NCBI GenBank assembly: GCA_021772535.1
Contig: JAJFLV010000199.1
Coordinates: forward strand, 1 to 42,599
DNA from: Opitutales bacterium
GTDB taxonomy: Bacteria > Verrucomicrobiota > Verrucomicrobiia > Opitutales > UBA2987
Length of the DNA stretch: 42,599 bases
Reading direction: 5' to 3'
Shown here in pieces: positions 28,586 to 29,013 of this stretch (the first letter of the stretch is position 1; every line of letters begins with the position of its first letter). The notes beneath the pieces were generated by a model. That model was not told where the DNA came from, ran no database searches, and was given only the letters and a program-made list of their open reading frames with translations. Made by a program: the position numbers and the translations under genes.

Positions 28586-28640
28586 ACTTGATCATTGCCT
28601 GTCGCTCGGCGGGTGTTGAAAAATCGATACTTCGATCTTA

Positions 28641-28915
28641 GAGGGCGTCTAAAAAGTCGAAATGACGATGGCGGAGATGATTTGTGACATCAGCGGCGTT
28701 GCATCAATCGATGTTTGGGCTGGAAGCCCTGACTCGGTTGATGCAACGCCGCTGATGCCTCAAAACACTCTGTCCCAAAGGGATGCGGGCGGGCATCGAA
28801 GGTCGCGGCGTTGGTTTCGCGCTCACGGGCTTGCAGCCCGCTACGTGCGAAACCGCCTTGCGCTGCTTCGATTCCGCCGCGCACCATCGCACATTTCCAC
28901 TTTTTAGACACCCTC
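28641..28915. mobile_element. 275-bp MITE-like element with TIRs and TTA target duplication
   Basis: The left end GAGGGCGTCTAAAAAGT (28641-28657) and the inverse of the right end (28899-28915), GAGGGTGTCTAAAAAGT, match at 16 of 17 bases. The match continues through GAAATG and CGATGG to about 31 bases with few differences. TTA flanks both ends (28638-28640 and 28916-28918), as expected of a target-site duplication. Inside are two hairpins. The first has perfect 20-base arms (28688-28707 and 28738-28757) enclosing GGGCT-GGA-AGCCC. The second has ATCGAAG/CTTCGAT (28795-28801, 28866-28872), GGTTTCGC/GCGAAACC (28813-28820, 28847-28854) and CGGGCT-TGC-AGCCCG (28826-28840). It encodes no transposase, so movement would need one elsewhere, perhaps an IS5-type enzyme judged by the short duplication. 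Confidence 0.85.
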
Positions 28916-29013
28916 TTATATGAGTGCCCTTATTTTTGGGTTTCTATTTTGGTCTCCCCGGCGCAGCCAGGAACTCTGCCAACGAACTTCGGTAACTGAC
29001 TCAAGTATGTTGC

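Follow-up and report, generated by a model that had tools for sequence, protein, structure and literature searches.

An earlier note, made from the letters of one stretch of Opitutales DNA (42,599 nucleotides, hereafter the window), had picked out a 275-bp MITE-like element with two elaborate hairpins, and the locus raises the question of what this element is, which enzyme moves it and what its folded interior is for. Taken together, the comparisons described here suggest, with a probability that we put at roughly three in four, that it is an IS5-driven MITE whose loss leaves 9-nt scars and whose interior occurs order-wide by swapping its ends.

A multicopy miniature element between two TTA triplets

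We found the element where it had been described, at 28641-28915 (275 bp), between one TTA at 28638-28640 and a second at 28916-28918. Its left terminal inverted repeat, GAGGGCGTCTAAAAAGTCGAAATG, lies at 28641-28664 on the forward strand, and the right one, which reads inward as GAGGGTGTCTAAAAAGTGGAAATG, at 28892-28915 on the reverse strand; a repeat search of the window bore out the inverted ends as two arms of 30 nt (28635-28664 and 28892-28921) that are 87% complementary. The claim that the element has no coding capacity likewise held, in that it contains only chance-sized open reading frames, the longest of which (81 aa, 28662-28907) is matched by no Pfam family. A search for other copies, which the note had proposed, returned ~30 additional full or partial copies within this genome (BLASTN, 83-97% identical). 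Many lie at the ends of contigs, where repeats that break an assembly are expected, and two congener genomes carry copies as well. In 8 of the 10 full copies in the window genome the same TNA (TTA, TAA or TGA) flanks both sides, and on this comparison the two TTA triplets are a target-site duplication. With that many copies and such matching triplets the element is not a chance pattern; being shorter than 500 bp, non-coding, multicopy and bounded by terminal inverted repeats and a target-site duplication, it is a non-autonomous miniature transposon (MITE). Plasmids gave no match to it and viral contigs no exact match to its two-box pattern (see below), and in the openly readable literature we found no description of the element or of Opitutales MITEs.

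The ends are those of an IS5-family insertion sequence

Comparison across the order shows, at the level of sequence, that the ends of the window element, GAGGGYGTCTAAAAAGT, and its TNA duplication are also those of an IS5-family insertion sequence (IS; NF033580) from another Opitutales family. This partner IS was found through a PF01609 search in other Opitutales, followed by reading of ends and transposase: its protein belongs to the IS5 family (NF033580), with PF13340 in ORF A and PF01609 in ORF B, its right end lies 44 bp past the transposase domain at three loci (L285, L300 and L301), and its left end lies 68 bp upstream of the start codon at two others (L254 and L278). The transposase gene sharing these ends, proposed earlier as a check, can thus be pointed to, but it comes from that other family and not from the window genome. 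The window's own genome, fragmented into 272 contigs, yielded no IS with these ends (type A of the end types set out below), and in its genus no transposase was enclosed by a type-A end pair, the nine PF01609 loci there giving only one type-B end (L110). That end, GAACCTATCTCAAATT, adjoins an IS5_3 transposase gene fragment at a contig start in the window's own genome, and types A and B are the only ones to which a transposase has been matched. From the shared ends we infer that the IS5 transposase of the partner IS moves the window element. Within the genus, L094-L097 and L110 reveal a second subfamily, with a related interior and type-B ends, together with the transposase gene fragment just described.

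Searched across 373 Opitutales genomes with at most one mismatch, the type-A terminal repeat occurs in 15, G116 alone having 84 sites, and it also bounds other small elements of 123-161 bp, whose TNA triplets mostly match. A separate 161-bp MITE family with type-A ends is represented by L300:431-591 (G116) and its relatives L255, L256 and L279, and the L300 copy lies within its presumed partner IS. When this filled site (GGACACC-TTA-element-TTA-GGGCTGG) is compared with L285 (GGACACC-TTA-GGGCTGG, a single TTA), the two are a direct filled/empty pair, for the sister MITE rather than for the window element. An empty site with a single TTA, of the kind that the note had proposed to look for, therefore exists in exact form for this sister MITE, whereas at the window locus genome G001 keeps the neighbouring genes, without the element between them, around a junction that cannot be aligned base by base. 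The same is seen more widely in the congeners, in which coding flanks align at ~80% and intergenic junctions are unalignable, at the window copy and at the solo sites described next. At L080, ~1555-1585 (G000:C272), two type-A end fragments adjoin (TTAGACGCCCTCTAAGAGGGCGTCTTA).

Solo 9-nt sites as candidate loss scars

Counts of the solo-site pattern show that the outermost 9 nt of the left end, GAGGGCGTC (28641-28649, forward strand), also occur by themselves between two TNA triplets. The 12-mer TNAGAGGGYGTC has 80 sites in the genome with TNA next in 73 of them, some of these sites being ends of full elements, where the TAA belongs to the repeat; reversing the 15-mer pattern, as a control, yielded zero matches. 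In end types A and B a TNA directly follows the outermost 9 nt, inside the element, and only sites with unrelated flanks were counted as clean solos, those continuing like the repeat being left aside. Across the genus there are 37 clean TNA-GAGGGYGTC-TNA sites; in 30 of them the two TNAs are identical (TAA/TAA 22, TTA/TTA 7, TCA/TCA 1) and in 7 they differ, and a Fisher test on the TTA/TAA table gives p = 0.0008. Mosaic scars of mixed sequence, which would sometimes be expected if two 9-nt overhangs annealed, are few and close to background.

The fixed 9-nt length and the matching triplets fit the loss of an element of which 9 nt, the outermost at one end, stay in place, and judged from this pattern the solo sites are probably 9-bp loss scars, with excision as their presumed cause. 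They resemble the footprints of Tc1/mariner excision in that a few outermost nucleotides of one end stay between duplicated target bases; however, those footprints are 2-3 nt long, whereas the solos here are 9 nt long, derive from IS5-type ends and are rarely mosaic. In the simplest model of such a scar, one strand would be cut 9 nt inside the end, beside the second, internal TNA, and then rejoined. Alternatively, the solos could owe nothing to the transposase and stem from slippage during replication, or from recombination, between the TAA inside the end and a flanking TAA. Microhomology with the internal TAA would favour the observed 22 TAA/TAA over 7 TTA/TTA solos, and the rarity of mosaics agrees with it, but the 8 of 37 solos that are TTA/TTA or TCA/TCA lack a full TAA match; we consider slippage an unlikely source of the solos as a whole, and for the TAA/TAA class it remains a rival.

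A conserved two-hairpin interior

Between its ends the element carries two hairpins, a smaller one between them and two conserved boxes. Arm A, the first long hairpin, spans 28678-28767 with its tip, GGGCTggaAGCCC, at ~28717-28729, and was returned by the repeat search as an internal inverted repeat (28678-28711 / 28734-28767). Folding and subfamily comparison place a mini-hairpin, GTCCC-AAA-GGGAT, at 28772-28784, near the symmetry centre of the element, and arm B follows at 28813-28854, its tip CGGGCTTGCAGCCCG at 28826-28840. Arm B is framed by box 1 (TCGCGGCGTT, 28803-28812) and box 2 (GCCTTGCGCTGC, 28855-28866), both on the forward strand, which in the subfamily alignment keep a mean identity of 94% and 95%, respectively, the hairpin between them having 53% identity with its pairing retained. 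The two hairpins of shared core that the note had described are real: the covariance model of arm B matches arm A on the opposite strand in several elements, relatives of the window copy included, so that one hairpin unit is present twice, as arm A and, inverted, as arm B, on the two sides of the mini-hairpin. In the predicted fold of the family consensus, a terminal stem, arm A, the mini-hairpin and arm B form on either strand (~-169 and -175 kcal/mol).

A covariance-model search located this interior in 27 of the 373 Opitutales genomes, which belong to 14 genera and ~10 families, within elements of ~270 bp. Among 56 aligned units, pairing holds in 91% of pair cells, both sides have changed in 296 cells where shuffling would give 81, and covariation scores 0.62 vs at most 0.11 when slid. 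For foldback MITEs such as QMITE2 of Coxiella burnetii, a review (PMC10969869) likewise describes whole elements predicted as one very stable fold; here, in contrast, the fold is backed by order-wide covariation, and the likeness is drawn at the level of the fold. Rfam returned only sub-threshold matches for the window region (E up to 1) and, for loci of other subfamilies, no match at gathering score. Matches to the box-2 pattern in named genomes outside Opitutales extend for ~20-37 bases only and are not elements. An integron attC site, raised by the bulged and sequence-poor hairpin, was dropped, since by eye we take the attC boxes to be missing from the interior. Two variants stand apart: copies L012 and L014 (G000:C49 and C157) are without 14 bases in arm A and 27 bases of the arm B tip, losses that resemble deletion of hairpins, and L246:1501-1558 (G007) differs from the two-armed elements in having one hairpin unit, set within a near-perfect palindrome of far greater length (GGTGTAAGGGGGGCTGTTTCGGCTT...).

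As to the earlier suggestion of two REP-like units carried in one transposon, the two inverted hairpin units stood and their identity as REPs is conjectural. Read on the minus strand, GTAG precedes the tip hairpin on its 5' side in some subfamilies, that of the window copy among them, and is absent or altered in many, so the conserved tag of a REPIN or GTAG REP is not found across subfamilies; moreover, unlike REPINs, the interior lies between DDE-type terminal repeats accompanied by a target duplication, which leaves a likeness in architecture only. The interior might still be a captured REPIN-like element, that is, two inverted REP hairpins once moved by a RAYT (IS200/IS605-type) and now placed between IS5-type ends. 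The paired inverted units and the partial tag speak for such a capture, as does the report that Opitutus terrae is rich in GTAG repeats (PMC3733652), but the unconserved tag and the position of the conserved boxes at the hairpin bases speak against it, and we regard it as improbable.

A perfect 20-base stem had also been noted, and it is present in the window copy without being a trait of the family, whose consensus stem has an internal loop where the window copy pairs perfectly. The left side of arm A (28688-28707, forward strand; GACATCAGCGGCGTTGCATCAATCG vs the family's GACATTCAGCAAGGCGCATCAATCG) is the exact reverse complement, over 20 bases, of the copy's own right side (28738-28757, forward strand), which agrees with the family consensus; the differences from the consensus are clustered in the left side, and one of the conserved boxes in arm A was overwritten by the same change. 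A single template switch accounts for these clustered differences, and the perfect stem, which is private to the window copy, looks like an imperfect family stem corrected by template switching. This is a known type of mutation that is proposed to create and maintain hairpins (PMC8794818, PMC7202029). Such a private stem calls for caution, because some of the family covariation could likewise be mutational, arising partly from template switching rather than from selection; the near-invariant boxes are not accounted for in this way.

One interior under several end types

Across Opitutales at least five terminal-repeat types surround the interior: type A (GAGGGCGTCTAAAAAGT), type B (above), type C (GAGCA- with a varied inner part), type D (TACCAAATTT-like) and type E (GGGCGTGTCTTTAAAT). 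In trees of the interior, type-B interiors do not form one clade (AU p = 0.00025), nor do type-C interiors (p = 0.023), the value for type D being 0.22; these results are to be read with care, because the trees, built on 116 columns of a model-fitted alignment (A2), are weak in their deep branches, and because the interiors were already in hand when the end types were given their names.

MITEs are commonly viewed as stripped-down copies of a single IS, to which they are bound and for which their interior is irrelevant. The window element shares with IS5-mobilised bacterial MITEs its length below 300 bp, lack of coding content, IS5-family (NF033580) ends, TNA duplication and multiple copies, features that are known for an IS5-family MITE; it is set apart by one structured interior under several end types order-wide, whereas IS5-mobilised MITEs are usually tied to one IS and here the interior spans ~10 families and at least five end types. 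IS-derived MITEs as such are described in the review cited above (PMC10969869). That the element is a MITE of the usual kind, derived by deletion from a single IS5-family IS, with a passive filler interior, young copies and relatives acquired by horizontal transfer, is already disfavoured and very doubtful: its ends, duplications, copy number and same-genome copies 83-97% alike would suit this, but the interior occurs in ~10 families with 53% identity in the hairpins, pairing in 91% of pair cells and 94% identity in the boxes, lies under at least five end types, and by eye is unlike the internal part of the partner IS.

Proposed mechanism and meaning

In the IS5-driven reading that we prefer, an IS5-family transposase (NF033580, IS5_3 type) encoded by an IS with the same ends would recognise GAGGGYGTCTAAAAAGT and insert the element at TNA, duplicating the triplet, and when the element is lost, 9 nt from the very edge of one end would often stay behind, enclosed by the two TNA copies. 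Across the order, the interior, two inverted hairpin units and a mini-hairpin, would be retained on account of its fold and its two boxes and be combined with different IS5-like ends by lineage, such that one chassis could serve different transposases. It would most likely help the element itself to spread, acting as a folded single strand of DNA or RNA, and our guess is that a host or transposition protein may bind the folded interior through the boxes. Only tentatively do we go further, to a selected structured module that persists across the order by swapping ends and riding different IS5-type transposases, that needs its hairpins and boxes for spread, whether as folded single-strand DNA or RNA, and whose chemistry leaves fixed 9-nt scars.

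The window copy illustrates that a template switch can make an imperfect stem perfect, and hence that covariation should be read as selection with care. If the fixed 9-nt solos are scars, past losses could be counted from them, and they would hint at how IS5-type transposases cleave strands. Finally, the interior outlives its ends: the same covarying two-hairpin module is found with different end sets by family, and this asks what purpose the interior serves.
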